This document shows positions 4,741 to 62,229 of a stretch of DNA of 64,000 nt, piece after piece. Positions within the stretch are counted from its first letter, which is position 1, and each line of letters begins with the position of its first letter. The notes under the pieces are model-generated. The model saw only the letters and a list, made by a program, of their open reading frames with translations. It searched no databases and was not told where the DNA came from. A program made the position numbers and the translations under genes. This DNA comes from Humisphaera borealis (lineage in GTDB: Bacteria > Planctomycetota > Phycisphaerae > Tepidisphaerales > Tepidisphaeraceae): contig NZ_CP063458.1 of the NCBI RefSeq assembly GCF_015169395.1, positions 2,232,001 to 2,296,000 of the forward strand. Direction: 5' to 3'.

Positions 4741-4808
4741 GTAGAGGCGGAACTGCAGGACCCTGGGGGTGCTCCCCTTCGCCATCAATATTGCTGCGAG
4801 GATCAACC

Positions 4809-6845
4809 GTGACGCGCGTCGAACATCCACCGATTGAACGGGACGTGACAAAGGAACAGGCAGACAGAGTCCGTCGGTTGCCTGTCGGTGCCGAGCAACT
4901 GCCGAATGGCCTCGGCGTGCACTTTCGTGTCTGGGCGTCGAAACGACGGCTCGTCCGGGTCGTGCTCGACGACAGGCCCGATTCGCCGGTAACACTGGAA
5001 CGCGAAGCCGAAGGTTACTTCGCCGGCCTTGCGCCGCGGGCACGAGCGGGGACGCTCTACCGCTATCAGGTCGATGACGACCCGCAGCTCTACCCGGATC
5101 CGGTCAGCCGGTACCAGCCGCAAGGCGTCCACGGCCCGTCACAGGTCGTCGACGCCGACGAGTTTCGATGGACCGACGGCGCATGGGCCGGCATCAACAG
5201 CGACGGTCAGATTCTCTACGAGATGCACGTCGGCACGTTTACGAAGGAAGGCACCTGGGCCGCGGCAGCCGAACGGCTTGAGGATCTGCGGGACTTGGGC
5301 ATCACTTGCGTGGAGGTGATGCCGGTGAACGAGTTCGCCGGCCGCTGGGGATGGGGCTACGACGGCGTCCAGTTGTTCGCGCCCTATCACCACTACGGCA
5401 CACCCGACGACATGCGCCGCTTCATCGACCGAGCCCACGCGGTGGGCCTGGGCGTCATTCTCGATGTCGTCTACAACCACCTCGGCCCCGACGGAAACTA
5501 CGCAAGCGTTTTCAGCGATCAGTACTTCAGTCCGACACACCAAACAGACTGGGGCGATGCGATGAACTTCGACGCCGCCGGGAGCAGGCCGGTGCGCGAA
5601 TTCTTCCTTTGTAACGTCCGGATGTGGATCGAGGAGTACCACCTCGACGGGTTTCGATTCGACGCGACTCAGGCGCTGGTGGACGAATCGGAACGCCACA
5701 TTCTCGCCGAAATCACTGAGGTGGCTCGGCGGTCGGCAGGAAACCGAGCGATCTACCTCGTCAATGAAAATGAGCCGCAGCACACCCAGCTCGTGCGGCC
5801 GATCGATGGCGGCGGATGCGGCATGGACGCCCTGTGGAACGACGACTTCCATCATGCGGCCATGGTCGCGATGACCGGACACAGCGAGGCGTACTACTGC
5901 GACTATCGCGGAGCGCCGCAGGAGTTCATCTCGGCGGCAAAGTGGGGCTACCTGTACCAGGGGCAGCGGTACAAGTGGCATGAGAGGCGGCGCGGCACAC
6001 CCGCTTTGGATCTGCCGCCGACCGCGTTTATCCACTTCATCCAGAACCACGACCAGATCGCCAACACCGCACGAGGCGATCGCCTTCACAAGGTCACCAG
6101 TCCCGGCGAACTAAGGGCGATGACCGCCCTGCTGCTGCTGATGCCGCAGACGCCAATGCTCTTTCAGGGCCAGGAATTCGCGGCGTCGAGCCCGTTCTAC
6201 TACTTCTCGGATCATCATGAGGACCTGTCGAAACTGATTGCTGCCGGCCGGGCAAAAGAGATCGCGCAGTTCCCCAGCGCTGCGTCTCCGCTGATGCAGG
6301 AACAACTGGTCGATCCTTCGGCGCCAGCAACCTTCGAGCGGTCAAAGATCGATCATTCCGAGGCAGACCGCCCGTTCCACGCCGAGATTTACCGCCTGCA
6401 CAAGGAACTGCTGAGGCTTCGGCGTGAGGAGCCGGCTTTTAAGCGGGTACAGCGGCGCGGCGACATCGACGGGGCCGTCCTTGGCGCGGGCGCATTTGTG
6501 CTCCGCTTTTTTGGCAGGCCCGATCACGGCGGAGAGTCGGGTGGCCAGGGCGACGACCGCCTGCTGATCGTCAACCTCGGCCAGGACCTGGCGCTCGATC
6601 CGGCCCCCGAACCGCTGCTCGGCGCTCCGCCCGGCCGGCGATGGTTCACGATCTTCTCCAGCGAAGATCCTTGCTACGGCGGGTCGGGCACCGCGCCGTT
6701 GGAGACGGAAGCTGAGGGTTGGCACATTCCCGGCCGCACCACGGTTCTACTTCGACCCGTCAACGCCGCCGAGGCTGTGGTCGCGACGCGCTTCCGCGTG
6801 GCTCCTTCCTGTCAGGAAGCCAAGCATCGTGAACAGTCGGTTTAG
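4809..6845 (+). CDS. treZ: Malto-oligosyltrehalose trehalohydrolase
   Basis: Predicted to cleave trehalose from maltooligosyl-trehalose, the second step of the TreYZ pathway. The GTG at 4809 is preferred over an in-frame TTG at 4791 because GAGGATC lies just upstream at a normal distance. The 678-residue protein has an N-terminal CBM48/E-set-like region (GVHFRVWASKRRLVRVVL) and a GH13 barrel: VVYNHLGPDGNY, DGFRFDAT with Asp285 as likely nucleophile, a Glu near 320 in NENEPQ, and QNHDQIAN with Asp415. It lies 68 nt after glgX and 29 nt before treY, consistent with one operon. Strong overall similarity to GlgB-like enzymes is expected, but the trehalohydrolase identity is supported by treY next door. 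Confidence 0.92.
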   Translation: MTRVEHPPIERDVTKEQADRVRRLPVGAEQLPNGLGVHFRVWASKRRLVRVVLDDRPDSPVTLEREAEGYFAGLAPRARAGTLYRYQVDDDPQLYPDPVSRYQPQGVHGPSQVVDADEFRWTDGAWAGINSDGQILYEMHVGTFTKEGTWAAAAERLEDLRDLGITCVEVMPVNEFAGRWGWGYDGVQLFAPYHHYGTPDDMRRFIDRAHAVGLGVILDVVYNHLGPDGNYASVFSDQYFSPTHQTDWGDAMNFDAAGSRPVREFFLCNVRMWIEEYHLDGFRFDATQALVDESERHILAEITEVARRSAGNRAIYLVNENEPQHTQLVRPIDGGGCGMDALWNDDFHHAAMVAMTGHSEAYYCDYRGAPQEFISAAKWGYLYQGQRYKWHERRRGTPALDLPPTAFIHFIQNHDQIANTARGDRLHKVTSPGELRAMTALLLLMPQTPMLFQGQEFAASSPFYYFSDHHEDLSKLIAAGRAKEIAQFPSAASPLMQEQLVDPSAPATFERSKIDHSEADRPFHAEIYRLHKELLRLRREEPAFKRVQRRGDIDGAVLGAGAFVLRFFGRPDHGGESGGQGDDRLLIVNLGQDLALDPAPEPLLGAPPGRRWFTIFSSEDPCYGGSGTAPLETEAEGWHIPGRTTVLLRPVNAAEAVVATRFRVAPSCQEAKHREQSV

Positions 6846-35610: not shown

Positions 35611-35629
35611 GCGGGCAGTGCCCGCCCTA
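35611..35629 (-). repeat. GTAGGG palindrome (CGGGCACTGCCCG) at the GHMP kinase stop codon
   Basis: On the minus strand the sequence reads GTAGGGCGGGCACTGCCCGC. The TAG is the in-frame stop of the GHMP kinase gene (35627-35629), and the following GCGGGCA/TGCCCGC is a perfect 7-bp palindrome. It shares the GTAGGG start with the elements at 43927 and 50424. Confidence 0.75.
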
Positions 35630-37090
35630 CACGATCGCCGACCCGGTCTGCCAGGCACCGTCGCTGCTGCCGGCGAACAGGGTCGGCGTCTTGCCCGTCT
35701 TGCCGGCGTAGTCGGCCATGGCCGACGCGATTGCCTTATCCTGAATGTCGCCCCGCTCGCAGAGCAACGCCACCGTTCCGCCCAGCCCGCCGCCGGTGAT
35801 CCGGGCACCGTACAGACCCTGGCGTTCCCGCTGCCGCAGCAGCATCACCAGCAGGTCGGCTTCTTCCGAACCGAGCTTCGCGTCCATCATGTACGACTGA
35901 TGGCTGGCGTACATCAGGTGGCCGGCCTTGTCGAGCGTCAGGCCGTAGTCGCGCGATCCGATGGCGGACGGGGCCATCCGGTTGGCCTCTTCCAGGAACT
36001 CGCTGAACTTTCGCACCCTTCGTGCCTCCAGCACATGGTGGTCGGCGGCGTGGACGATCTCGTAGGTTGTATCGGGGTGAACCCGGGTCGCCGTGTCGAT
36101 CGTGGGACCATATTTGAGAAGGAATTCGCCGCCACGAATCTGGTCCGGAAGCCGCGAGCGGAAGATGCGCTTGTAGTCTTCAGGATCGAGGTTCGCGAGG
36201 TAGCCGTTGAGCGGGTCGGCGACCAGTTCGCGGCCGGCGGCGGCGCCGATGTGCTTCATCGTCGCCAGGATGATCTTGTGGGCCATGAACGCCGCGCAGC
36301 GGGTCTTGCCGTACTGCCCCCCGCCGACGCTGTGCCGCACGCCGGTGTCGATGCCGACGAAACGCATGTTCGGCGGCACCGCCAGCGGCGCGAGCAGTTC
36401 GTGCGGCTGGCACTTCATCCGGAGAAGCTGGCCAGAAAGGCCTGCCACGCTCGTCGCCTGGTCCATGATGCCGCAAGGTGCGCCGACCACGTCATTCTCC
36501 ACCCGCTGGCACAGCGCGGCGAGGTCCATCGACAAGATCGAAGCGTCTCGCGAAATCCTAAGGTGATCGACCAGCACCGACATTGTCGCGACTTCGATCG
36601 CCGCCGACGAACTGACCCCCGCGCCCAGCGGCACCGTACTGAGCAAGGCAATGTTCAGACCTGCGACGGAAGGCTTGGCGAGATCGACCAACCCGGCGAC
36701 GTGCAGCACATGCAGGCACCCGGCAAGGTACGCCGCCCATTGCCGTCCCGGCTCGGCGAACTCACGACGCAGGTCAGCGGTGGGCATCGCGGCCAGGGCG
36801 TCGAGGGGAATTCGCAGCGTGAACGGCTTGTGCTCGTCGAACAGATTGAACGAGAAGACCTGCACCTGCCGGTCGTCGCGCTCTTGAATCGCGACCGCCG
36901 CTGCCCGATCGAGCGGCATCTCGCAGACGAGCGACCCTGTGTAGTCGGCGATCCCGCCCATGACGTCGAGCCGGCCCGGAGCCCGGGCGATACGAACCGG
37001 CCGGGAGGGAGCGAAATCAACGGCAAGTTCGTCGCGCAGCCGGGCCAACAGTGCCGGGACGGGTTGCTGCGATAGGAGCGATAAAGACAC
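35627..37090 (-). CDS. GHMP kinase, galactokinase/L-arabinokinase-like
   Basis: A sugar-1-kinase of the GHMP superfamily. Signatures are APGRLDVMGGIADYTGS (about residues 37-53), the ATP-binding PLGAGVSSSAAIEVAT, and the C-terminal ARITGGGLGGTVALL. The MGGIADY wording is closer to what I recall of plant L-arabinokinase (ARA1) than to bacterial GalK, which has GEHTDYNGG. The start is uncertain: GTG at 37090 (AAGGAAG upstream, 487 residues) or TTG at 37120. Product would be a sugar 1-phosphate. Neighbour CysQ-like phosphatase is on the same strand downstream. Confidence 0.85.
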   Translation of the reverse strand: MSLSLLSQQPVPALLARLRDELAVDFAPSRPVRIARAPGRLDVMGGIADYTGSLVCEMPLDRAAAVAIQERDDRQVQVFSFNLFDEHKPFTLRIPLDALAAMPTADLRREFAEPGRQWAAYLAGCLHVLHVAGLVDLAKPSVAGLNIALLSTVPLGAGVSSSAAIEVATMSVLVDHLRISRDASILSMDLAALCQRVENDVVGAPCGIMDQATSVAGLSGQLLRMKCQPHELLAPLAVPPNMRFVGIDTGVRHSVGGGQYGKTRCAAFMAHKIILATMKHIGAAAGRELVADPLNGYLANLDPEDYKRIFRSRLPDQIRGGEFLLKYGPTIDTATRVHPDTTYEIVHAADHHVLEARRVRKFSEFLEEANRMAPSAIGSRDYGLTLDKAGHLMYASHQSYMMDAKLGSEEADLLVMLLRQRERQGLYGARITGGGLGGTVALLCERGDIQDKAIASAMADYAGKTGKTPTLFAGSSDGAWQTGSAIV

Positions 37091-37137
37091 GATGGTTGAG
37101 GCTTCCTTATGACGGGGCAATCAGGATAACTGGGCTA

Positions 37138-39680: not shown

Positions 39681-42116
39681 ATGCCCAAGTGTTACCGTCT
39701 GGCCGTGCCCGCACATCGAATCCACGCGAACGCGAAAATCCCGTCCCTGCTCCTGGTCGTCGGCGTGCTGCTGGCCGGCTGTCGCGGCGGCGCGGAGAAG
39801 GCTTCGTCCCAGCCTTTGCGTCAACCGTTGCCGCAGCCCGAGGTCACGACACGTCCCGCATTCGACCAGAATCGCATGGCCGACGCAGATCGCGCCATTA
39901 CCGACGCCATCGGCCGGGGCGAGATTCCCGGCGCGGTGCTGGTTGTCGGTCGCGGCGACAGGACCGGCGGGACCATCATTTACAAAAAGGCGTATGGCAA
40001 TCGCGCCGTCCAGCCGGCCTCTCTGCCGATGGCGACGGATACCTTGTTTGACATGGCGTCGCTGTCCAAGCCGATGGGCTGTGCCTCGTCCGTCATGGTG
40101 CTGATCGAACGCGGGCGGATCGACCCGAATCGCCCCGTCGCGACCTACCTGCCGGAGTTCGGCCAGAACGGCAAGGACAAGATCACCGTCGCTCAACTGC
40201 TGCTGCACCAGGGCGGGCTGATTCCCGATAACGCGCTTGCCGACTACCAGAACAGCCCGGCCGTCGCGTGGGAGAAGATCTGTTCCCTCAAGCCGCAGAC
40301 GCCGGCCGGGACGGCGTTCAAATACACCGACGTGGGCTACATCGTCCTGGGCAAGCTCGTCGAGAAAGTCTCCGGCCAATCGTTGAACGACTTCGCCCGC
40401 GAGAACATCTTCGAACCGGCCGGCATGACATCGACGGGCTACCTTCCGCCGCCCGATCGAAAGCAGAACGCCGCGCCGACCGAGCAACGCGAGGGGCGCT
40501 GGATGATCGGCGAAGTCCACGACCCACGGGCCTACCTGCTGGGCGGCGTCGCCGGCCACGCCGGGCTTTTCTCGACCGCCGACGACACCGGCCGCTTCTG
40601 CCGCATGCTGCTCAACGGCGGCACGATCGACGGCCGGCAGGTGTTCAAACCTTCAACCGTCGCGCTGATGACGCGGCCGCAATCGCTCCCCGATGGCACC
40701 AACCTGCGTACCTTCGGCTTCGACTGCGACACCGCGTATTCCAGCCCGCGGGGCGAACGCTTTCCGAAAGGCGTCAGCTTCGGGCACACCGGTTTCACCG
40801 GTACCAGTCTTTGGATCGATCCAGTGAACGACAGTTTCGTCGTGCTGCTGACCAATTCCGTGCATCCCAACGGCAAGGGCAAGGCCACGCCGCTGCGCCG
40901 GCAGATCGGCACGATCGCCGCCGAGGCGCTGCTGGGACCGCAACCGGGGACAAGCGCAACCGCCACCCCAGCCGCCGAGTCAACCGGCCCGGTTGCGACG
41001 GGCATCGACGTACTGGCACAGAACGGCTTCGCTCCGCTCCGCGGCAAGCGCGTGGCGCTGGTGACCAACCAAACCGGCATCGACCGCCGGGGCCGCCGCA
41101 CGGTCGATCTGCTCGCCGCCGCCGACGGCGTAAAGCTCGTCAAGCTCTTCTCACCCGAGCACGGCCTGTTCGGCATGCTCGACGACAAGGTGTCGGACAT
41201 GACCGACCCCAAGACCGGCCTGCACGTCTACAGCCTGTACGGAAAGACGAGGAAACCAACGCCCGAGATGATGGCGGGCGTCGATACCCTCGTGTTCGAC
41301 ATCCAGGACGCCGGCGCCCGGTACTACACCTACGTCTCGACGATGGGTCTCTGCATGGAAGCCTGTGCGGCGGCCAGGGTGACGATGGTAGTCCTCGACC
41401 GCCCGAACCCGACGACCGGCAACATCGTCGACGGCCCGATCGCCGACGACAAATCCCTCAACTTCGTCGGCTACGCCCCGATCCCCGTCAGCCACGGCAT
41501 GACCGTCGGCGAGCTGGCGAAGATGTACAACCTCGATCGCAAAATCGGCTGCGATCTGCAAGTCATCGAAATGACCGGCTGGCGGCGCGACCTCTGGTTC
41601 GATCAGACGGGGCTCACCTGGATCAACCCATCACCCAACCTCCGCAGCCCGACGCAGGCGCTGCTGTACCTCGGTATCGGGCAGATCGAGATGACGAACG
41701 TATCAGTCGGCCGGGGAACGGATTTTCCGTTCGAGGTGGTCGCCGCGCCGTGGATCGACGCCGAGAAACTCTCAGCCGCCCTGACGGCGGAGAAGCTGCC
41801 GGGCCTGTCCTTCGCGCCGATCACCTTCACCCCGACCGCCAGCAAGTTCGCCAACACCGCTTGCTTTGGTGTACGTATTTCGGTCACCGACCGCACGACG
41901 GTGGAACCCGTCAAGCTCGGCACCGCGCTCGCATGGCATCTGCGCCGCCTCGGCGGCGACACCTTCGAGATCGACAAGGTCAACGTCCTGCTCAAGAGCG
42001 AAGCGACCATCGCAGCCATCAAGTCGGCGAAGACTCCCTCGGAGATCGCCAGCACCTGGCCCGAAACCCTGGCGGCGTTTCGGGCGACACGGGCGAAGTA
42101 CCTGATTTATCGATAG
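39681..42116 (+). CDS. Fusion lipoprotein: beta-lactamase-fold (AmiE-like) + DUF1343 (NamZ/GH171-like)
   Basis: An 811-residue lipoprotein (lipobox VLLAGC, Cys34). Residues about 65-430 are a serine beta-lactamase/esterase-fold domain: SxxK motif S127-L-S-K130, YTD at the second motif (FKYTDVGYIVLG) and HTG as the third (GHTGFTGTS). Residues about 440-811 are a DUF1343 domain: GKRVALVTNQTGIDRRG, LFSPEHGLFG, DIQDAGARYYTYVSTMG, VLDRPNP. DUF1343 includes NamZ, an exo-beta-N-acetylmuramidase (GH171); in Bacillus subtilis NamZ works with AmiE, a beta-lactamase-family amidase. Here both appear in one chain, suggesting stepwise removal of peptide and MurNAc from wall fragments. A symporter gene starts 9 nt later. 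The enzyme activities are inferred. Confidence 0.88.
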   Translation: MPKCYRLAVPAHRIHANAKIPSLLLVVGVLLAGCRGGAEKASSQPLRQPLPQPEVTTRPAFDQNRMADADRAITDAIGRGEIPGAVLVVGRGDRTGGTIIYKKAYGNRAVQPASLPMATDTLFDMASLSKPMGCASSVMVLIERGRIDPNRPVATYLPEFGQNGKDKITVAQLLLHQGGLIPDNALADYQNSPAVAWEKICSLKPQTPAGTAFKYTDVGYIVLGKLVEKVSGQSLNDFARENIFEPAGMTSTGYLPPPDRKQNAAPTEQREGRWMIGEVHDPRAYLLGGVAGHAGLFSTADDTGRFCRMLLNGGTIDGRQVFKPSTVALMTRPQSLPDGTNLRTFGFDCDTAYSSPRGERFPKGVSFGHTGFTGTSLWIDPVNDSFVVLLTNSVHPNGKGKATPLRRQIGTIAAEALLGPQPGTSATATPAAESTGPVATGIDVLAQNGFAPLRGKRVALVTNQTGIDRRGRRTVDLLAAADGVKLVKLFSPEHGLFGMLDDKVSDMTDPKTGLHVYSLYGKTRKPTPEMMAGVDTLVFDIQDAGARYYTYVSTMGLCMEACAAARVTMVVLDRPNPTTGNIVDGPIADDKSLNFVGYAPIPVSHGMTVGELAKMYNLDRKIGCDLQVIEMTGWRRDLWFDQTGLTWINPSPNLRSPTQALLYLGIGQIEMTNVSVGRGTDFPFEVVAAPWIDAEKLSAALTAEKLPGLSFAPITFTPTASKFANTACFGVRISVTDRTTVEPVKLGTALAWHLRRLGGDTFEIDKVNVLLKSEATIAAIKSAKTPSEIASTWPETLAAFRATRAKYLIYR

Positions 42117-42125
42117 CACTCATCA

Positions 42126-43661
42126 ATGACTTGGATCGACCTCATCATCATCGCCGGCTATCTCGGCGGCATCTGCATGCTCGGTGTGATGTTCACCCGC
42201 CGGCAGAAGACGACCCGCCATTACTTCACCGGCGACCGCTCCATTCCCGCCTGGGCGGTCGCCGCTTCGATCGTCGCCACCGAGACGTCCACCGTTACCT
42301 TTATCTCCGTCCCAGGCATTGCCTTCGCGCGTGGCGGGAACTTCACCTTCCTGCAACTGGCGATGGGCTACATCGTCGGGCGGATTGTCATCACGTTCCT
42401 GTTCATCCCCCGCTACTTTCGCGGCGAGCTACAGACCGTTTACCAGCTTCTGCAAACCCGCTTCGGTACGCCGGCTCGCATGGTCTCGGCGTCGCTCTTC
42501 GTCGTGATGCGCAACATCGCCGACGGAATCCGCATGCTCCTGACGGCGATCGTTTTGGCCGCGGTATATGTGGCGTTCGTTCCCGGTCACGACACCGACG
42601 GCGGACGCGAGATCGCGACCGTCGTGGCACTGCTGCTGCTTGGTGCGGTCATGATCCTCTTCACCTACTTCGGCGGGATTGAAGCCGTTGTCTGGGTGGA
42701 AGTGCTGCAACTGGGCATCTACCTCGCCGGCGCGATCGCCGCGATGTGGGTACTGGCCGCCAATGTCTCGGGAGGCCTGCCGGGCGCGATCGATCTCGGC
42801 GACCGGTTCGCCAAGCTGACCGTGTTCGACTTCAGCTTTGACCTGGCCAAAACCTACACATTCTGGTCCGGCGTCGTCGGCGGGTGCTTCCTGACAATGT
42901 CCACCCACGGCACCGACCAGTACATGGTTCAGCGATATCTCTGCACCGATCGTCCGTCCCGCGCCGGCGCGGCGCTGCTGGCCAGCGGCCTGATCGTGTT
43001 CGTGCAGTTTGTTCTGTTCCTATTGATCGGCGTTCTGCTGTTCGCGTTCTATCGTCCATTCGAGCAGGCCGGCTACGCCACGTCCGCCGTGACAACATTC
43101 CCGTTCGCGTCGCCCGATCGCGTGTTCCCCGACTTTATCACCAAACATCTGCCGACAGGGCTGTCAGGCCTGGTGGTGGCGGCGATCTTCGCGGCCGCGC
43201 TGTCGTCGAGCCTCTCCGCGATCGCCGGCACCGTGGTCAATGACCTTTACAAGCCACTGAAACCCGCCAGGACGGACGGTCACTATCTGACCGTCGGCAA
43301 GGTGTTGATCCTGGTGTTCGGCGTCATTCAGACCGCCGTCGCGCTGGCGGCGATCAGGTCAGCCAGCAGCGCCCTCAGCAATGTGCTGACCGTCGCCGGC
43401 TTGGTGAACGGCCCGGTGCTCGGTCTATTCCTGGTCGGGGCGATGAGCAAGCGCATCCCCCAGTCCGCCGCGATCGCCGGGATGGCGGTCAGTGCGGTCG
43501 CGATGGTCGGGCTCTGGTGGTTCGGGGGGAAGTGGGTGGCGTGGACGTGGTATCCGTTGATCGGCAGTGCGATCGTCATCATCGTGGCATTCATTGCGAT
43601 GCCGGTCTTCTCGCCCCTCGGTCGCGATGATCGCCGTGGCTCTGACAGCGCTCTCGGCTGA
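42126..43661 (+). CDS. Sodium:solute symporter (SSS family)
   Basis: A 511-residue integral membrane protein with about 13 hydrophobic segments. Family features are YLGGICMLGVMFTRRQKTT, then YFTGDRSIPAWAVAASIVAT with TETSTVTFISVPG in the next segment, GTDQYMVQRYLCTD, and ALSSSLSAIAGTVVNDLYKP (the Na2-site Ser-rich stretch). It starts 9 nt after the AmiE/NamZ-like gene, so co-expression is near certain. By context the cargo could be MurNAc, GlcNAc or a muropeptide fragment, but SSS substrates cannot be read from sequence by eye. Confidence 0.92.
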   Translation: MTWIDLIIIAGYLGGICMLGVMFTRRQKTTRHYFTGDRSIPAWAVAASIVATETSTVTFISVPGIAFARGGNFTFLQLAMGYIVGRIVITFLFIPRYFRGELQTVYQLLQTRFGTPARMVSASLFVVMRNIADGIRMLLTAIVLAAVYVAFVPGHDTDGGREIATVVALLLLGAVMILFTYFGGIEAVVWVEVLQLGIYLAGAIAAMWVLAANVSGGLPGAIDLGDRFAKLTVFDFSFDLAKTYTFWSGVVGGCFLTMSTHGTDQYMVQRYLCTDRPSRAGAALLASGLIVFVQFVLFLLIGVLLFAFYRPFEQAGYATSAVTTFPFASPDRVFPDFITKHLPTGLSGLVVAAIFAAALSSSLSAIAGTVVNDLYKPLKPARTDGHYLTVGKVLILVFGVIQTAVALAAIRSASSALSNVLTVAGLVNGPVLGLFLVGAMSKRIPQSAAIAGMAVSAVAMVGLWWFGGKWVAWTWYPLIGSAIVIIVAFIAMPVFSPLGRDDRRGSDSALG

Positions 43662-43709
43662 CACAGGTGTGTAAACTACAACTCGCAAACGGACGAGCGG
43701 GGAAATCTC

Positions 43710-43922
43710 ATGAAACCTCGATCGAAGATATGCGTGCTGGCTGTCATGGTCTTGACGAGTTCGGGATGCTGTATTGTCCGCTGGGGAGTGGGGATCGATG
43801 CCGACCCGTTCTGTATCGATTATATGAGAAAGAATTGCTGTGGCGGTCCGACCACACAACCCTCGCAGGATCGTCCAAACACCGCAACAACCTCACCATC
43901 TGCTGACGCTATTGGGCGTTAG
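43710..43922 (+). CDS. Small Cys-rich putative lipoprotein
   Basis: A 70-residue protein with GGGGAA 7-8 nt before its ATG. A basic start and hydrophobic stretch (ICVLAVMVLTSSGC) look like a lipoprotein signal, although the lipobox is imperfect (SSGC). The mature part has several further cysteines (CIVRW, FCIDY, NCCGG) and a Thr/Ser/Pro-rich tail. I do not recognise a family. It lies 48 nt after the symporter and may be part of the same operon. A GTAGGG repeat pair begins 5 nt after its stop. Confidence 0.55.
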   Translation: MKPRSKICVLAVMVLTSSGCCIVRWGVGIDADPFCIDYMRKNCCGGPTTQPSQDRPNTATTSPSADAIGR

Positions 43923-43926
43923 CGCT

Positions 43927-44012
43927 GTAGGGTCCGCCTTGGCGGACGCGCCGCGTTCCCCGGGATGTGGTGTGCGGTTTCACGAATGCCCGTCCGCCAA
44001 GGCGGACCCTAC
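43927..44012. repeat. Paired inverted repeat, GTAGGGTCCGCC family
   Basis: A perfect 22-bp inverted repeat: GTAGGGTCCGCCTTGGCGGA+CG at 43927-43948 and its complement at 43991-44012, with a 42-nt spacer. Each arm contains its own palindrome TCCGCC/GGCGGA. The right half supplies the last ten codons and stop of the ROK kinase gene on the minus strand. A third, single copy lies at 50424-50445. Confidence 0.9.
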
Positions 44013-44849
44013 GGATACCGCCCGTGCCGCGCCCGCGGCGTTGTGGAAGTCGTTCTCGCCGAAGGACAGCGTCCATTCCGGGCGGGCGATGCTGGTGAGT
44101 TTGTGGCTCACTGCCGCGTGCAGGTCATCCCGCAACCGCGACAGTCGAATCCCCACGCCGCCGGCCAGCACGACATGATCAGGGCGGTACATCGCATGCG
44201 CGATGCGGACGGCACGTGCCAGTGCCCTGGCCGAGGGGTCCGTGATCTTCATCGCATTCAGCGCGTTGGCGTCGCCGCCGTACATCTTCACGAGGGCAGG
44301 CGCGCCGATGTACCCTTCGAAACTCCCCGCCCCGCCGTCGGGGCCGATAACGGGTGCCCCTTCGATCGAGACGTCCATCTGCCCGAAATGTCCGGGGGAA
44401 TCGCCGTCCACCCGCAGCGGGCCGGTCGCGTCCATGACCGCCACGCCGACCCCGGTGCCCAGCACCATCAGGAACAGCCGGCCGGACAGCTTCCGACCCA
44501 GATAGATGTCGTAAGCGGCGGCGGTGGTGTCGTTCATGATCCGCAAACGCGCCGGCGTTCGCCCCAGTGCCACGGCGGCGATGTCCGCCAGCGGCAGGCC
44601 GTTGAGCTTCGGAAGGTTTACCGACAGTGCAATCTTCGTCTGGTGTTCGTTGAGAATCCCCGGCACACAAAGGCCGACGTTGGACGCTTCGATTTCCCGA
44701 CCCGCGATCACTTCCCGGATCGCGCCGATGATCGTCTCGGCCGACGGGTCGGCGTAGCGTGCGCTTTGCGCGGTCCAAAGGACCCGATCGTCGCGCAACG
44801 CGGCGACCTTGACCGAACCCCCGCCGATGTCGATTCCAAGCGAGATCAT
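43980..44849 (-). CDS. ROK-family sugar kinase
   Basis: A 289-residue member of the ROK (repressor, ORF, kinase) family without an HTH domain, so a kinase. Motifs: phosphate-binding LGIDIGGGSVKVAAL at the start, GLCVPGILN, catalytic Asp in RIMNDTTAAAYD, FLMVLGTGVGVAVM and SPGHFG. The usual zinc-binding CxCGxxGCxE is replaced by GPDGGAGSFEG, so the Cys ligands are missing. Convergent with the symporter operon; a role in amino-sugar phosphorylation is plausible from context. The last ten residues (VGSALADGHS) are encoded by a repeat element, so the original C-terminus was probably altered. Confidence 0.88.
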   Translation of the reverse strand: MISLGIDIGGGSVKVAALRDDRVLWTAQSARYADPSAETIIGAIREVIAGREIEASNVGLCVPGILNEHQTKIALSVNLPKLNGLPLADIAAVALGRTPARLRIMNDTTAAAYDIYLGRKLSGRLFLMVLGTGVGVAVMDATGPLRVDGDSPGHFGQMDVSIEGAPVIGPDGGAGSFEGYIGAPALVKMYGGDANALNAMKITDPSARALARAVRIAHAMYRPDHVVLAGGVGIRLSRLRDDLHAAVSHKLTSIARPEWTLSFGENDFHNAAGAARAVSVGSALADGHS

Positions 44850-45171
44850 CCGGCGAAGTGTAGCGTGAATCGCGAAGTACGACCCGTTCCCTGGTGACGG
44901 CGCCCTGGATGAAGCGCGACCGACGAGTCCGAAACTTTTAGCGCCATCCCGAAGGGATGGGTTTCGGCGCGGGTTGCGGGACGATCCTCATGGATACGAA
45001 TACTATGGTCGACCCAGAATCCCACGTACCTTCCGTATCGCGCCAAACCCATCCCTTCGGGATGGCGCTAAAAGTTTGTCTCCCGTATCGAATCTCCCTT
45101 CATCGGTTCCACATTCCAACGCGACGCGCCGAGCGCTGGTATCCTCCTGTACACCTCGCACCCGGAGTCGC
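44850..45171. other. Intergenic region holding a large inverted repeat
   Basis: 322 nt between divergent ROK kinase and the 1,751-residue protein. Its main content is the 39-40 nt inverted repeat pair at 44932-45077. Promoters for both genes must lie here or overlap it. Confidence 0.5.
44932..45077. repeat. Paired inverted repeat, AAACTTTTAGCGCCATCCC family
   Basis: Left arm 44932-44971 (starts AAACTTTTAGCGCCATCCCG) and right arm 45039-45077 (ends GGGATGGCGCTAAAAGTTT) are inverted copies differing only by one extra C in the left arm. Spacer 67 nt. Each arm also has an internal hairpin, CATCCCGAAGGGATG or its complement. Confidence 0.92.
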
Positions 45172-48100
45172 ATGTCACGCTGGATTGTCGCATTCGGTTG
45201 TCTTCTTCCCTTGCTGGGTTCCTCCGCGTCCGCGGCCGAGCTTCGCGCCGGCGCGGCCGCCATCGACATTTCGCCGAAGCAGTACCCGGTCCTCATCAAC
45301 GGCGGGATGACGTCGCGCAGCGCGACCAAGCTTTCTGACCCGATCCATGCCCGCGCCATCGTCTTCGACGACGGCAAGACCAAGCTCGCGGTCTGCGTGG
45401 TCGATAACTGCCTGTTCCCCCGCAAGCACATCGACCCCGCCAAGGCCGAGGCGAGCAAGCTGACGGGCATTCCGGCGGAAAACATGCTGGTGTCGGCCAC
45501 GCATACGCACAGCGCGCCGTCCGTCATGGGCGCGCTCGGCACTGAGGAAGACCCCAACTATCCGCCGGTCATGCGGGAAGGTATCGCGCGGGCGATCGCG
45601 GAGGCGTACAAGAACCTGGAGCCGGCAAAGGTGGCGTGGGGCGTCGCCGATGCCAACGAATACGTCGCGATGCGTCGCTGGATAAGGCGGTCGGATCGCA
45701 AGATGAAGAGTCCATTCGGCGATCAGGACGTACTGGCCAACATGCACCCCGGCCACCTGAGCGTCGATGCCGTCGGTCCCAGCGGGCCGGAAGACCCGGC
45801 GCTCACCGTGCTGTCGGTGCAGGCCGCCGACGGCCGACCGATTGCGCTCATGGGCAACATCGGCATGCACTACTTCAGCGGGCCGGCACCGGTGTCGGCC
45901 GACTACTTCGGCATCTTCTGCGGCCTGATCGAAAAGGAACTGGGCGCGGCCATCCCAGCCGGCAAACCGAAGTTCGTCGGTCTTCTGTCCCAGGGCACCA
46001 GCGGCGACTGCTGGCGACGGGACTACACCAAGCCCAAGCCCGAGAAGGAAATCACGATCGACGAGTATGCCGGCGGCCTGGCGAAGCTCGCGCTCGCCGC
46101 CGTTGCCAATAAGCAGCACCAGAGCGTCGATCTCGCGATGGCCGCCGCCGACATCCGCATCAAGGCCCGGGCACCGTCCCCGGAGCGCATCGAGTGGGCC
46201 AAGAAGATGATCGCCGAGATGGGCGACCGCCTGCCCAAGACGCAGCCCGAGGTCTACGCCAAGGAAGTCCCGCACTTGGTGAACGTCCCCGAGGCCGACA
46301 TGCTGCTGCAGGCAATCCGCATCGGCGACTTTGGCCTGACGGCGATGCCGAACGAGGTCTACGCCCTGACCGGTCTGAAGATCAAAGCCCAGAGCCCGCT
46401 CGCCGGTACGATGAACGTCGAGCTCGCCAACGACGAACTCGGCTACATCCCCCCGCCCGAGCAACACCCGATGGGCGGGTACACCACCTGGCCCGCGCGC
46501 AGCAGTTACCCCGCGGTGGATACCGAACCGAAGATGGTCGAAACCGTGCTCACGCTGCTGGAGAAAGTCGCCGGTAAGCCGCGCATCCCGATGGACCAGA
46601 CCCCAGGCCACGCCGTCGTCGGCGATTACGGCAAAGCCGTGCTAGCCTCCAAGCCGATTGCGTATTGGCGGATGAACGAGATGTCGCCGGTCCCGGCGAA
46701 AGACCAGGTCTCCGGGCAGTTGGCGAAGTACGAACCGTTCATCGCGTTCTGGCTCGAAGGCCCGCAGTCGGATGCCTTCAGCGGCAAGGGCGTCGTCAAC
46801 CGCAGCCCACACTTTGCCGGCGGGCGGATGGTCATCGATACCGGCAAGAAACTGACCGGCGATTACAGCGTCGAGTTCTGGCTCTGGAACGGCTTCCCCG
46901 CCGAGGGACGCGCGGTGGCCGGTTACGTGCTCTCCCGCGGCACCGACGGTGACAAGACCGCCGGCGAAAGTCTTGGCATCGGCGGCACCGACGCCACGCT
47001 CAACGCCGCCGGCAAGCTGTTCATCTACAACGGCGACGGCGCGAAGAAGACCCTCGTCGGCCGTACACCGCTGTCATTCAAGGCGTGGAACCATGTGGTG
47101 TTCGTGCGCGCTGGCGCGCGGGTTCACGTTTACCTCAACGGCAACGCCGACCCGGAGATCAGCGGCGAGCTCGAATCGACCGTGAACGGTGCCGGCACAA
47201 TTTTCCTCGGCGGGCGAAACGACAGCTTCACGAACCTCGAAGGCAAGCTCGACGAAGCCGCGATCTACGACCGCGCCCTCACCGGCACCGAAGCCGCCGC
47301 CCATTTCCGAGCGGCCGCCGTCCTTGAAACGGCTGTCCGTGACACGGGTTTCCAACCCGTGCAAGGTGCGCCCGAACGTCAGGGAACCGTCAATCCTCAG
47401 CGACCCGACTCTTCGAAGTCAGGTGCTGCAGAACCCACATCTGCTGAACGGTCGGACGCACCCAGCACGGGTTGGAAACCCGTGTCACGGACAGCCGTGT
47501 CAGAAACAGCTGCCGCAGCAACGCAGCCTGCGGCGATCTCCGGCATGCGGCTGTCCAAGCCCCTGTCGCCCGAAGAGAGCGCCAAGCTCCATGTCGTCAA
47601 AGCCGGTTACGAGCTCGAACTTGTCGCCGCCGAGCCGATGGTCATGGACCCGGTCGCGTTCACCTGGGGGTCCGACGGCCGAATGTGGGTTGCCGAGATG
47701 TCCGACTACCCCTACGGCAGCGACGGCAAGATGAAAGCCTGCGGACGCGTACGCTACCTGCAGGACACCGACGGCGACGGCAAGTTCGACAAGTCCGTTG
47801 TCTTCGCCGACGGCCTGAACTTCCCCACCGGCCTGCTGCCGTGGCGCGATGGCGTACTCGTCACCGCCGCACCGGATATGCTGCTGCTGCGCGATACCAA
47901 CAACGACGGCATCGCCGACGTGAAAGAGGTCCTCTACACCGGCTTCACCGAGGGCAACCCGCAGCTCCGCGTCAACTCGCCGCAGTTCGGCCTGGACAAC
48001 TGGGTGTACCTGGCCAACGGCGTCAGCAGCAAAGGCGAAGTGACGTCGCTCAAAACCGGCGCGAAGGTGCAGGTCTCCGGCCGCGACATCCGCATCCGCC

Positions 48101-50427
48101 CCGACACCGGCGAAATCGAAACCGAAACCGGCACCAGCCAGTTCGGCCGCAAGATGGCCGACAACGGCGAATGGTTCGGCGTTCACAACAGCTATCCCGG
48201 CCGGCACTTTGTCATCCCCGAGCGCTACAGCAAGCGCAACCCGCACGCCTCGCTGCCGCAGAATTACTACGACCTCGGCTTCTCGGCCAACCCCAAGGTC
48301 TACCCGCTCAGCCAGGGGCAGAAGCGCTACGGCACGGCGTTCTTCGCGCAATCCGGACGCTTCACCAGCGCCTGCGGCATGACGCCCTACCGCGATACGC
48401 TGCTCACCGGCGCCGGCACGTCCGGCGGCACGGGCGAACCTCAGAAAGACGGCGTCATCCACCTGTTCACCTGCGAGCCCGTCCACAATCTCATCCAGCA
48501 CAACGTCCTCAAACCCGCCGGCAGCACGTACGTCGCCGAGCGTTCGCCCGATGAACTCGACGGCGAATTCCTGGCGTCGAAGGACGAATGGTTCCGCCCC
48601 GTCTATCTCACCACCGGCCCCGACGGCGCGCTCTACATCGCCGACATGTACCGCTTCATGATCGAGCACCCCGATTGGCTGCCGGCCGAGGGGAAGGAAG
48701 ACTACCGGCCCTACTACCGGCTCGGCGAAGACCTGGGGCGCATCTGGCGGGTGAAGCCGAAGGGCTCGACCCTGCCGCCGATCCCCAACCTGGCCAGGCT
48801 CTCCACGCCCGAACTCGTGAAGGCGCTCGAATCGTCCAACGGCTGGCAGCGCGATCTGGCGCAGGCCATGCTCGTATGGGAAAAGAGCGGCAATGCCGTC
48901 CTGCTGCTGCAGGATTTGGCGCTGCTCGGCAAATCGCCGTACGCACGCCTGCATGCGATGTGGGCGCTGGAGGGGACCAACAACCTGACGACGCGCGTCG
49001 CCGAGAAGGCGATGACGGATGAGCACCCCGCCGTCCGCCGGGCGGCGGTGCGGTTTGCCGAGAACCGCGCCGATGCGTCGCCGACGTACATGAACGCGCT
49101 CCGCAACGCGATCACCGACCCCGATGCCGGCGTGCGCTTGCAACTGGCGTACTCGCTCGGGCAGATCAACATGCCCGCCGCCGGCGAGACGCTCGCAAAG
49201 CTCGCGCTTTCCGCCGGCGACGATGTCTACCTCACGGCGGCGGTGATGACCTCGGCCCACGTCCACACCGACGCACTAGCCACCGCGATGCTCGGGCAGG
49301 CGGCCCCGCCGACGGCGCTGATGCGCGACCTCCAGGCGATGGCGCTGGCCAAGGGCGACCGCGACCTGCTCGCCAAGCTGCTGCTGCCGATTCTTGGCAC
49401 CAAGGGCGGCCGCTACACCATGCCGCAGCTCGTCGCGTTTCGCGAATTTCTTGACGTCCTCGGCCAGCAGAAGACGTCGGTCGCCAAGCTCGGCGGTAAA
49501 GGCGACGCGCTCAGCGATCTGCTGACGGCCGCCCCCGATGCCTTCGCCGCCGGCCGGGTTGTTGCAGGCGCGATGGAGCTGCCGGTCGAAAAACGGCTGA
49601 TCGGGATCAGCCTGCTCGGCCGCGACGGGGCTCATCTGACCGACGACCTCAAGCAGCTCTCAGCGATTTACGCCCCCGCCGCCCCGGCGGCCATCCAGTT
49701 GGCCGCCGTCCGCGCGTTGTCCACGGCCAGTGCGGCGGAAGTGCCCGGCGTTTTGCTGTCGCGCTGGGCCGATCGCCCGGCAGAGGTTCGGTCGGCGGCG
49801 GTTGATGTCCTGCTCACCCGGGAACCCTGGACGCTCACTTTGCTGGAGCGTCTCAAGAGCGGCGAAGTGCCGGCGACCGACTTCGACGCCACCCGAAAGC
49901 AGCGCCTCGCCCGCAGCAAGTCGGCGAAGATCAAGGATCTGGCGTCGGCAGTGTTCGGCGATCTGGGCGTGAACCGCTCGAAGGTCGTCGAAACCTACCG
50001 CCCCGCCGCCACGCTCGCCGGCGATGCCGCCCGCGGGCAGAAGATCTACCAGGCCAACTGCGCGACGTGCCATAAGGTGGGCAGCGAAGGCGTCGAGATC
50101 GGACCGAACCTGGCGTCCATCGCCGGCTGGCCGCCGGAGGCGCTGCTGACGGCGATCCTCGACCCCAGCCGATCGGCCGAGCCGCGCTACCTGGCCTACA
50201 CAGCCACGCTCGACACGGGCGAAGCCGTCTACGGCATCCTGCTCCGCGAAACGCCGGCGGGCGTGACGATCAAAGGCCTCGACGGCAAGGAACGCGACAT
50301 TCCGCGCAAGCAGATAAAATCGCTGGAATGCGCCAACCGCTCCCTCATGCCCGATGGCATCGAATCAGCGGTAGACGCGCAACAGATGGCGGATCTCATG
50401 CAGTTTCTACACTCGCAAAAACCGTAG
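45172..50427 (+). CDS. Giant secreted protein: ceramidase-like + LamG + PVC-type dehydrogenase + HEAT + cytochrome c
   Basis: A 1,751-residue protein with a signal peptide (WIVAFGCLLPLLGSSASA). Approximate domains: neutral/alkaline ceramidase-like (20-465; ATHTHSAP with His111/His113); LamG/concanavalin-like (495-715; AYWRMNE, EFWLWNGF, DEAAIYDRALTG); a 60-residue linker encoded by an inverted repeat pair (720-775); PVC membrane-bound dehydrogenase beta-propeller (800-1195; GYELELVAAEPMVMDPVAF, DGRMWVAEM); HEAT-like repeats (1205-1600); and a C-terminal cytochrome c domain with NCATCHK (Cys1630, Cys1633, His1634). PVC dehydrogenase plus HEAT plus haem is a standard planctomycete combination; the ceramidase-like front end is less usual. 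The TAG stop lies inside a GTAGGG repeat. The start at 45172 is chosen for the signal peptide. Confidence 0.9.
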   Translation: MSRWIVAFGCLLPLLGSSASAAELRAGAAAIDISPKQYPVLINGGMTSRSATKLSDPIHARAIVFDDGKTKLAVCVVDNCLFPRKHIDPAKAEASKLTGIPAENMLVSATHTHSAPSVMGALGTEEDPNYPPVMREGIARAIAEAYKNLEPAKVAWGVADANEYVAMRRWIRRSDRKMKSPFGDQDVLANMHPGHLSVDAVGPSGPEDPALTVLSVQAADGRPIALMGNIGMHYFSGPAPVSADYFGIFCGLIEKELGAAIPAGKPKFVGLLSQGTSGDCWRRDYTKPKPEKEITIDEYAGGLAKLALAAVANKQHQSVDLAMAAADIRIKARAPSPERIEWAKKMIAEMGDRLPKTQPEVYAKEVPHLVNVPEADMLLQAIRIGDFGLTAMPNEVYALTGLKIKAQSPLAGTMNVELANDELGYIPPPEQHPMGGYTTWPARSSYPAVDTEPKMVETVLTLLEKVAGKPRIPMDQTPGHAVVGDYGKAVLASKPIAYWRMNEMSPVPAKDQVSGQLAKYEPFIAFWLEGPQSDAFSGKGVVNRSPHFAGGRMVIDTGKKLTGDYSVEFWLWNGFPAEGRAVAGYVLSRGTDGDKTAGESLGIGGTDATLNAAGKLFIYNGDGAKKTLVGRTPLSFKAWNHVVFVRAGARVHVYLNGNADPEISGELESTVNGAGTIFLGGRNDSFTNLEGKLDEAAIYDRALTGTEAAAHFRAAAVLETAVRDTGFQPVQGAPERQGTVNPQRPDSSKSGAAEPTSAERSDAPSTGWKPVSRTAVSETAAAATQPAAISGMRLSKPLSPEESAKLHVVKAGYELELVAAEPMVMDPVAFTWGSDGRMWVAEMSDYPYGSDGKMKACGRVRYLQDTDGDGKFDKSVVFADGLNFPTGLLPWRDGVLVTAAPDMLLLRDTNNDGIADVKEVLYTGFTEGNPQLRVNSPQFGLDNWVYLANGVSSKGEVTSLKTGAKVQVSGRDIRIRPDTGEIETETGTSQFGRKMADNGEWFGVHNSYPGRHFVIPERYSKRNPHASLPQNYYDLGFSANPKVYPLSQGQKRYGTAFFAQSGRFTSACGMTPYRDTLLTGAGTSGGTGEPQKDGVIHLFTCEPVHNLIQHNVLKPAGSTYVAERSPDELDGEFLASKDEWFRPVYLTTGPDGALYIADMYRFMIEHPDWLPAEGKEDYRPYYRLGEDLGRIWRVKPKGSTLPPIPNLARLSTPELVKALESSNGWQRDLAQAMLVWEKSGNAVLLLQDLALLGKSPYARLHAMWALEGTNNLTTRVAEKAMTDEHPAVRRAAVRFAENRADASPTYMNALRNAITDPDAGVRLQLAYSLGQINMPAAGETLAKLALSAGDDVYLTAAVMTSAHVHTDALATAMLGQAAPPTALMRDLQAMALAKGDRDLLAKLLLPILGTKGGRYTMPQLVAFREFLDVLGQQKTSVAKLGGKGDALSDLLTAAPDAFAAGRVVAGAMELPVEKRLIGISLLGRDGAHLTDDLKQLSAIYAPAAPAAIQLAAVRALSTASAAEVPGVLLSRWADRPAEVRSAAVDVLLTREPWTLTLLERLKSGEVPATDFDATRKQRLARSKSAKIKDLASAVFGDLGVNRSKVVETYRPAATLAGDAARGQKIYQANCATCHKVGSEGVEIGPNLASIAGWPPEALLTAILDPSRSAEPRYLAYTATLDTGEAVYGILLRETPAGVTIKGLDGKERDIPRKQIKSLECANRSLMPDGIESAVDAQQMADLMQFLHSQKP
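47331..47496. repeat. In-frame paired inverted repeat inside the giant protein gene
   Basis: Arms 47331-47370 and 47457-47496 are 40-nt inverted copies with only two mismatches (38/40). Both contain the palindrome CACGGGTT-TCC/GGA-AACCCGTG. The 86-nt spacer is also in frame. Together they encode the linker reading DTGFQPVQ on one side and STGWKPVS on the other. The same palindrome occurs alone at 50469-50501. Confidence 0.92.
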
Positions 50428-61557: not shown

Positions 61558-62229
61558 CTAAACCAGTTGATCCAACCCGCCCAGGCCGAGGACTTCATAA
61601 GTAAAGAATGGCTCGGCGTGCGCCGTTCCGATCCGTCCACCGAAGTAGGCACTGATCCCCTTAACCATGTCCGTCACGGCCGGCTGGTGCCCGAACTGCG
61701 ACGGGTAACACGCGATCGATTGCATCTTCTGGTCGATGGTGTCGCTGATGTCGATGCAAAACGTCGGCTGAAAGCTCATCCGGAGGTGCGTGCAGAAGTA
61801 GTAGATGATTCGCTTCGGATGCCACGGATCACCCGGTATCGACGTCTTGGACAACTTCGCGTCGAAGCGCGCGTCCTCGCAGATCCGTGTGACTGCGACA
61901 TGATCGGGGTGCGCGTCGGTCGGAAAGGGAACAAACAAGACGTCAGGTCGGTGTGCCCGAATAACCGCCGCAACCTTGTGGCGTGCTTCGATCGTATGCT
62001 GAACTTCGCGGTTCTTCAGCCCCACCAGCGACCGCTCAACACCAAGCGCCCGGGCGGCGTCGGCGGATTCCCTGGCGCGAATCTCAATAGTACCGTGTGG
62101 CGTCGGCTCGCCATTGGTCATGTCCACAAGATGAACGTAGTGCCCCTGCCGGTGCAGCTTGGCGATGGTGCCGCCCATGCCAAGTTCCTGATCGTCGGGG
62201 TGCGGACCGAATACGAGAAAGCGTGCCAT
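61558..62229 (-). CDS. PIG-L family deacetylase (BshB1-like)
   Basis: A 223-residue zinc-dependent N-deacetylase. The N-terminal FLVFGPHPDDQELGMGGT carries the metal-binding H-P-D-D, followed by VDMTNGEPTPHGT, RARESADAARALGV and DAHPDHVAV. This wording is close to BshB1, which deacetylates GlcNAc-malate in bacillithiol synthesis, but bacillithiol partners are not visible, so another GlcNAc-type substrate is possible. ATG at 62229; no obvious signal peptide, hence cytoplasmic. Confidence 0.9.
   Translation of the reverse strand: MARFLVFGPHPDDQELGMGGTIAKLHRQGHYVHLVDMTNGEPTPHGTIEIRARESADAARALGVERSLVGLKNREVQHTIEARHKVAAVIRAHRPDVLFVPFPTDAHPDHVAVTRICEDARFDAKLSKTSIPGDPWHPKRIIYYFCTHLRMSFQPTFCIDISDTIDQKMQSIACYPSQFGHQPAVTDMVKGISAYFGGRIGTAHAEPFFTYEVLGLGGLDQLV

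Follow-up and report, generated by a model that had tools for sequence, protein, structure and literature searches.

A single-chain S12-NamZ lipoprotein beside a sodium symporter: a probable PTS-free MurNAc-salvage locus in the planctomycete Humisphaera borealis

Does a planctomycete salvage MurNAc, and by which genes? Peptidoglycan in this phylum was shown only in 2015, in a paper where neither recycling nor MurQ or AnmK came up in a term search (PMC4432640). We examined a locus of Humisphaera borealis lying in a stretch of 64,000 nucleotides (contig NZ_CP063458.1, positions 2,232,001 to 2,296,000; referred to as the window). An earlier note, made from the sequence alone, had described in it a lipoprotein fusion followed by a symporter and a convergent kinase, and had proposed a non-PTS route of MurNAc salvage. 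The features are collected in Table 1. We consider that the fusion and the symporter form such a PTS-free route, with a probability of about 0.72, the kinase step being its weakest link.

Table 1. Features of the locus (positions counted from the first letter of the window)
Feature	Position	Strand	Basis
S12 (AmiE-like) and NamZ in a single chain, predicted secreted, 811 aa	39681..42116	+	Pfam/NCBIfam and AlphaFold model
Lipobox LAGC (LAG/C), predicted lipid attachment at Cys34	39771..39782	+	Translation
S12 beta-lactamase-fold domain, residues 70-404	39888..40892	+	Pfam, alignment, fold match
NamZ_N domain, residues 458-656	41052..41648	+	Pfam, alignment, fold match
NamZ_C domain, residues 661-810	41661..42110	+	Pfam
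Sodium/solute symporter (SSS), candidate MurT-type MurNAc importer	42126..43661	+	Pfam/NCBIfam, tree
ROK-family amino-sugar kinase, GlcNAc/ManNAc or MurNAc as candidate substrate	43980..44849	-	Pfam ROK

When the fusion reading frame was searched against Pfam, its Beta-lactamase match (E 4e-67) was far above the curated cut-off, and both parts of DUF1343 followed in the same chain: NamZ_N at 283.8 bits (cut-off 26.9, E 8e-85) and NamZ_C at 150.1 bits (cut-off 25, E 1e-43). The S12 motifs read from the translation were S127-L-S-K130, H369-T-G371 and Y215-T-D217, this third motif being YxD here, not YxN. In all of the aligned fusions (39/39), S127, K130, Y215, H369 and G371 were invariant, as was E493 in the SPEHG motif of NamZ_N, the putative catalytic glutamate of NamZ. 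The earlier description of a beta-lactamase-fold domain with intact SxxK and HTG motifs, joined to a complete DUF1343 domain in one lipoprotein, was thus confirmed; the lipobox ends at Cys34. The lipobox as a trait of the fusion family was rejected: only 8 of 38 relatives matched a simple pattern, and most others carried an ordinary signal peptide, as judged by eye.

The AlphaFold model of the fusion (pLDDT 87.8) consisted of two confident domains with a weak linker at residues 425-434. The NamZ half (residues 434-811) matched the solved DUF1343 folds 4k05 (Z 50.3, 38% identity) and 4jja (Z 39.5); this half is a candidate exo-beta-N-acetylmuramidase. For the S12 half the fold matches were EstG (Z 39) and 6kjh (Z 41), its neighbours in the PDB being EstG, carboxylesterases, an acyltransferase and class C beta-lactamases. 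Since the closest solved folds are esterases and acyltransferases, we infer, rather than observe, its amidase specificity. These neighbours, the YxD motif and a top NCBIfam match to PBP4B (far under its cut-off) would all fit a D,D-carboxypeptidase, endopeptidase or esterase, in which case the chain would couple some other trimming step to NamZ. We regard this as unlikely, as Bacillus operons place an S12 gene at the amiE position beside GH3 and NamZ, and the S12 domains of the bacillar operons grouped with the fused ones apart from the paralogs of the own genome, albeit at a node of only 86/86. In the bacilli among our genome-contig loci, S12, GH3 and NamZ were separate neighbouring genes. 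We keep the S12 half as AmiE-like and as a putative MurNAc-L-Ala amidase.

Full-length fusions were found in 32 of 391 other genomes of the phylum (two abutting pieces in genome G359 counted) and in 50 of 80 loci of a wider genome-contig collection, over at least eight phyla. Such recurrence, together with the invariant catalytic positions, indicates more than a chance joining. A fusion confined to planctomycetes was rejected, the wider loci carrying it in other phyla. In the tree, the fused S12 domains formed one clade (100/95), with one fused row outside, separate from the four recovered S12 paralogs of the own genome. Five unfused S12 domains were nested within this clade; on this basis, fission of the fusion is common. 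The phylum and genome-contig loci were picked by similarity to the fusion and several genera were sampled repeatedly (nine loci from one genus), so that the linkage counts given below describe fusion-bearing genomes; phylum counts of fusion and MurQ genomes were taken from listings by eye.

The stop codon of the fusion ends at 42116 and the ATG of the symporter stands at 42126, leaving the 9 nt that the earlier note had reported; the kinase gene is convergent, as it had also stated, and lies 318 nt past the symporter stop. The symporter scored 110.8 bits for Pfam SSF, over the cut-off, and 199.9 bits for NCBIfam TIGR00813 (cut-off 184), and the kinase exceeded the cut-off for Pfam ROK. As the own genome holds only three SSS genes, a tandem fusion-SSS adjacency would arise by chance with a probability of about 2e-4. 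The order fusion-SSS-ROK was the same in a genome of the same genus.

Within about 8 kb of the fusion in the 32 phylum loci we found SSS in 10, MurQ in 8, BadF kinase in 7 and AnmK in 4; fusion, SSS and MurQ stood together in 8/32. MurQ was linked to the fusion in 5 of 18 genera vs about 0.07 by chance, and, kinship ignored, was over cut-off in 30/33 fusion genomes vs 124/359 others. In other planctomycetes the fusion lay either with SSS, MurQ and a BadF kinase, or with SSS and GH3. Conserved gene order in relatives, which the earlier note had proposed to look for, was therefore found in part: linkage to SSS and MurQ recurs and unrelated neighbours are not the rule, but within this distance SSS was missing from 22/32 loci (among them the whole set of nine from a single genus) and MurQ from 24/32. 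A mere row of unrelated genes would be consistent with these SSS-less loci and with the convergent ROK gene. It would also fit the scans of the locus, which gave no sigma-70-like promoter site, for a consensus that says little in this phylum, and seven terminator-like sites, none clearly marking a gene end in a scan equally weak here. Nevertheless, an SSS/MurQ linkage recurring far above chance and the order kept in the same-genus genome make such a row highly improbable.

What does the symporter carry? In the tree it grouped with NamZ- or MurQ-linked SSS of other planctomycetes, and it shared 62% identity with its counterpart in an acidobacterial MurNAc cluster (L203, a Pyrinomonadaceae MAG with the order BadF-MurQ-SSS-GH3-fusion, all in one direction) and 60% with that of locus L060 (SSS-GH3-fusion). 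Its subfamily is genetically linked to namZ and murQ, in loci mostly chosen by those genes; where resemblance to the window SSS was the sole basis of choice, MurQ was nearby in 4/20 loci. A different solute (sialic acid, a sugar or an amino acid), with an incidental position of the gene, would be compatible with the closest solved relative, 5nv9, presumably a sialic acid transporter, and with the same-genus genome, where the same slot holds an SSS of another subfamily, only 30% identical; to our knowledge, the substrates of SSS proteins cannot be read from their sequences. However, both subfamilies adjoin MurQ in other planctomycetes (nearly all compared SSS having been retrieved for proximity to NamZ, MurQ or ROK) and that of the window occurs in MurNAc clusters of Acidobacteriota, so that transport of another solute appears rather improbable and a MurNAc importer is preferred.

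The kinase is the doubtful component. By Pfam it is a ROK protein and not a BadF/BcrAD member; its top NCBIfam and fold matches were ManNAc kinases, and N106 and H154 matched the Asn and His of those enzymes in a profile alignment to 6jda. Structures of MurK have small residues (S133-L135, T94) where other kinases have Glu/His and Asn, and a Glu or His there would clash with the lactyl ether of MurNAc (PMC10465942). By sequence alignment, the window ROK departs from the small-residue pattern at N106 and H154, which argues against MurNAc as substrate; the MurK positions were matched by way of the ManNAc kinases, since comparing the ROK and BadF profiles directly yielded nothing usable. Moreover, outside the genus ROK does not adjoin the fusion, nine genomes of the family carry ROK without the fusion, and a NagB/PIG-L fusion gene adjoins ROK relatives in 7/16 ROK loci. 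The odds are thus about even that the ROK is a GlcNAc/ManNAc-type kinase merely nearby, MurNAc being phosphorylated by another enzyme or entering as anhydro-MurNAc via AnmK. Such a bystander would be compatible with the rest of the salvage route.

On the other side stands a single chain in genome G077, which joins MurQ to a ROK 36% identical to that of the window and sharing its invariant H154. Also, the own genome has no BadF kinase over cut-off, and within the family NamZ occurred in 9/15 ROK-bearing vs 0/10 ROK-lacking genomes (the latter being smaller, and the table read from listings by eye). Kinase-etherase joins were seen both ways, as MurQ-BadF and as ROK-MurQ. A MurNAc kinase of the ROK family was not found described in a literature search. 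The ROK is a possible MurNAc kinase, for which the ROK-MurQ chain speaks and against which the residues at the two specificity positions speak. A sialic-acid (Nan) pathway for SSS and ROK was dropped, the neighbours of ROK relatives being NagB/PIG-L, GH20, GHL10 and MurQ.

Elsewhere in the own genome MurQ and AnmK were over cut-off, MurQ about 471 kb away, and a NagB/PIG-L fusion protein is encoded. The genome has no GH3/NagZ, and no BadF/MurK match over cut-off. The route that we infer, co-transcription of fusion and symporter included, would begin outside the cytoplasm with a membrane-tethered, secreted bifunctional enzyme trimming muropeptides: the S12 half would remove the stem peptide from MurNAc as an AmiE-type amidase, and the NamZ half would then act on the bare glycan, freeing MurNAc at its non-reducing ends. 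Uptake of free MurNAc would fall to the SSS, without a PTS, in the manner of MurT of Tannerella forsythia. In the cytoplasm MurNAc would be phosphorylated, possibly but not certainly by the convergent ROK; MurQ would convert MurNAc-6-phosphate to GlcNAc-6-phosphate, which the NagB/PIG-L protein would pass on to glycolysis.

The MurNAc-salvage reading of the locus was largely supported. What stood of the earlier proposal was the non-PTS route, through the AmiE/NamZ-like chain, MurQ and AnmK in the genome, and the SSS/MurQ/BadF linkage in relatives; the part given to the ROK is doubtful. Points against the reading are the position of MurQ outside the cluster, the missing GH3/NagZ and BadF/MurK matches, N106/H154 of the ROK, the different SSS subfamily in the same-genus slot and the common fission.

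A wider reading may be put forward tentatively, at somewhat less than even odds: the single-chain amidase/exo-muramidase would be an old entry to PTS-free MurNAc salvage, shared widely by Planctomycetota, Acidobacteriota and further phyla, with the downstream parts repeatedly swapped and the window ROK as MurNAc kinase. It draws on the SSS subfamily that differs within one genus and on a kinase that is BadF or ROK by lineage. If true, the ROK would act on MurNAc in a family where our literature search found no MurNAc kinase described, and the swapped kinases would be natural comparisons for the origin of MurNAc specificity. The fusion, if its activities are as predicted, would be a handy single reagent turning muropeptides into free MurNAc. 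With a defined gene set (fusion, symporter, MurQ, kinase), wall recycling in Planctomycetota becomes directly testable.

Compared with known systems, the locus is not new in kind. In the oral bacterium T. forsythia, ybbC (namZ), a MurNAc transporter of the sodium-symporter superfamily (murT), murK and murQ are co-transcribed (PMC5388701, PMC5790795); the window likewise has a NamZ gene, then such a transporter, then a sugar kinase, and no PTS. There, ybbC is listed as a gene of its own, murQ lies inside the operon and the kinase, MurK, is by its sequence no ROK protein, whereas the window has NamZ fused to S12, a convergent ROK and a murQ some 471 kb off, so that namZ, SSS, kinase and murQ do not form one cluster. 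In Bacillus subtilis, murQRP-amiE-nagZ-ybbC brings an S12 AmiE and NamZ together in a MurNAc-recycling locus (PMC5061867), and the window shares this pairing of families. The equivalents there are separate proteins and import is by a PTS, as the earlier note had it, and nagZ stands between the two genes, whereas the window has one chain, an SSS importer and a genome without GH3. The acidobacterial L203 resembles the window in its fusion and SSS, and differs in that its run of genes also takes in a BadF kinase, MurQ and GH3, with no ROK found there; the window cluster has ROK. The two-domain architecture itself was tabulated in 2008 as DDPept-DUF1343 (YP_439122.1, Table 3, with the note "cell wall biosynthesis"; PMC2605481), as one protein without function or context in that table. 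The implied novelty of the locus hence falls away: the PTS-free transcript of T. forsythia and the S12-DUF1343 fusion were both already published, and the fusion is not specific to planctomycetes.

The earlier note had described an AmiE-like beta-lactamase-fold domain and a NamZ-like DUF1343 domain in a single lipoprotein, with an SSS symporter 9 nt on and a convergent ROK kinase, and this arrangement was borne out by Pfam domains, motifs, lipobox and coordinates. The window occupies 2232001-2296000 of a single 7.19-Mb contig.

Features of the fusion locus (window coordinates unless stated)
Feature	Position	Strand	Remark
S12-NamZ fusion, 811 residues	39681-42116	+	Pfam domains
Pfam Beta-lactamase	fusion residues 70-404		far above Pfam cut-off
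NamZ_N	fusion residues 458-656		far above Pfam cut-off
NamZ_C	fusion residues 661-810		far above Pfam cut-off
SSS symporter	42126-43661	+	start 9 nt past fusion stop
ROK kinase	43980-44849	-	318 nt between ROK end and SSS

In the translation, the S12 half carries S127-x-x-K130, Tyr215 (YxD) and H369-T-G371, and the lipobox ends at Cys34. When the fusions were aligned (n = 39), S127, K130, Y215, H369, G371 and E493 were invariant. The AlphaFold model contains two confident domains (mean pLDDT 87.8) and a linker that is weak at 425-434; with a pTM of 0.59, domain-domain placement is not given by the model. By fold comparison, the NamZ half resembled DUF1343 structures (4k05, Z 50.3, 38% identity; 4jja, Z 39.5), and the S12 half resembled 6kjh (Z 41.1), EstG (Z 39.2) and further esterases.

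Among 392 phylum genomes, 32 besides the window's own encode the full-length fusion, as read off rows and with G359 included as two abutting pieces of one 804-aa frame. In a set of 61 relatives, 25 genomes belong to the same genus or family, and 6 of these have it. Of the best 80 loci from named genome contigs, 50 encode both parts in one frame, 2 have them side by side with a single stop, and 28 are not fused; by record title, the fused ones, almost all metagenome-assembled, belong to Planctomycetota, Acidobacteriota, Verrucomicrobiota, Armatimonadota, Myxococcota, Pseudomonadota, Rokuibacteriota and Hydrogenedentota. When 53 S12 domains were placed in a tree, those from fusions formed one clade (100/95), except for one from Hydrogenedentota that clustered with bacillar AmiE-position genes; the four own-genome S12 paralogs recovered fell outside. 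Since five unfused S12 domains nest within the fused clade, splitting was probably secondary. The fusion is genuine and ancient. Five loci (L047, L059, L062, L063, L071) hold another NamZ gene near the first, which suggests a split substrate range.

Gene order in relatives, examined up to 8 kb either side of the 32 phylum fusion loci, upheld the proposed salvage locus in part: SSS was found in 10/32, MurQ in 8/32, BadF in 7/32, AnmK in 4/32 and GH3 in 1/32. ROK was found in none, and the 22 loci lacking SSS, nine of them from one genus, were counted against pathway linkage. MurQ was linked to the fusion in 5 of 18 genera (chance P ~5e-9, assuming one MurQ per 5 Mb), most commonly as MurQ-BadF divergent from SSS-fusion. 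By raw genome counts that ignore kinship, MurQ was above cut-off in 30/33 fusion genomes vs 124/359 others. One locus (L060) reads SSS-GH3-fusion, its symporter sharing 60% identity with that of the window, and an acidobacterial contig (L203) has BadF, MurQ, SSS (62% identical), GH3 and fusion, all codirectional. In L047 (G105), MurQ and a BadF-type kinase share one open frame at 4404-6311 (-), with SSS and fusion divergent.

The window's own genome encodes one NamZ, MurQ (2748040-2748912) and AnmK, the latter two above cut-off, a NagB/PIG-L fusion protein and three SSS genes; neither GH3 nor a BadF-type kinase above cut-off was found in it.

A tree of 30 SSS sequences, most of them fetched for their neighbours so that linkage is partly by construction, resolved two subfamilies with MurQ-linked members in each; the window's is the one seen beside planctomycete fusions. 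Among SSS loci picked by similarity alone, MurQ was nearby in 4/20. In the other genome of the genus (G392), the same slot holds a symporter of the other subfamily (L077, 2900-4561, -; 30% identical), flanked by a fusion and a ROK with 70% and 65% identity, respectively. From these sequences, the simplest reading would be an exchange of importers with like function.

ROK occurs in 15/25 same-genus or same-family genomes and adjoins the fusion only within the genus. NamZ was present in 9/15 ROK-bearing vs 0/10 ROK-lacking family genomes, the latter smaller on average. Other ROK loci had NagB/PIG-L (7/16), SSS (3/16), GHL10 (3/16), GH20 (1/16) or MurQ (1/16) nearby. G077 encodes a single ROK-MurQ chain (L128, 6074-7954, -; ROK part 36% identical to the window's) adjoining SSS, GHL10 and GH20 genes. 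These neighbours and this chain class the window ROK as an amino-sugar kinase, with MurNAc a candidate substrate. Its residues fit MurNAc poorly: Asn106 precedes the catalytic Asp107, and His154 aligns, at sequence level, with a His of ManNAc kinase 6jda. According to the MurK structure paper (PMC10465942), the lactyl group would clash with Glu/His there and with Asn in the T94 position, which argues against MurNAc. His154 is invariant in 18 aligned ROKs, including the MurQ-fused one, which has Ser at the Asn position; the model falls below pLDDT 50 at 148-152, beside His154. Fold comparison placed this model closest to ManNAc kinases and further ROK kinases.

A glucosamine-6-phosphate isomerase-PIG-L deacetylase fusion (G000:C1:614665-616629, -; L119, L122, L124) adjoins the ROK gene in several relatives. 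Next to ROK in both the window (44974-50427, +) and the same-genus genome is a gene whose very long product combines a ceramidase-like stretch with LamG, DUF7133, HEAT repeats and a PVC-type CxxCH cytochrome domain. Elsewhere in the window are a galactokinase-like GHMP kinase under NCBIfam galactokinase cut-offs (35627-37120, -) and a weak PIG-L-type deacetylase match (62041-62226, -; 37% over 63 residues, within a 245-codon open frame).

Recurrent SSS and MurQ linkage favours the non-PTS MurNAc salvage previously proposed, and the ROK residues speak against MurNAc as substrate of that kinase. A PTS-free MurNAc salvage module of predicted single-chain amidase/exo-muramidase, MurT-like importer and candidate ROK kinase is partly supported. 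Our searches, which took in few subscription papers, gave no account of what the fused chain does, which is weak evidence of absence; the S12-DUF1343 fusion itself was tabulated in 2008 (PMC2605481). The ybbC of T. forsythia we take to be NamZ, by B. subtilis naming. This ybbC gene (Tanf_08370) lies directly upstream of murT, murK and murQ, and Tanf_08345 to murQ form one transcription unit (PMC5388701). S12, GH3 and NamZ are separate neighbouring genes in the bacilli of the named-contig scan, matching the published amiE-nagZ-ybbC order (PMC5061867).
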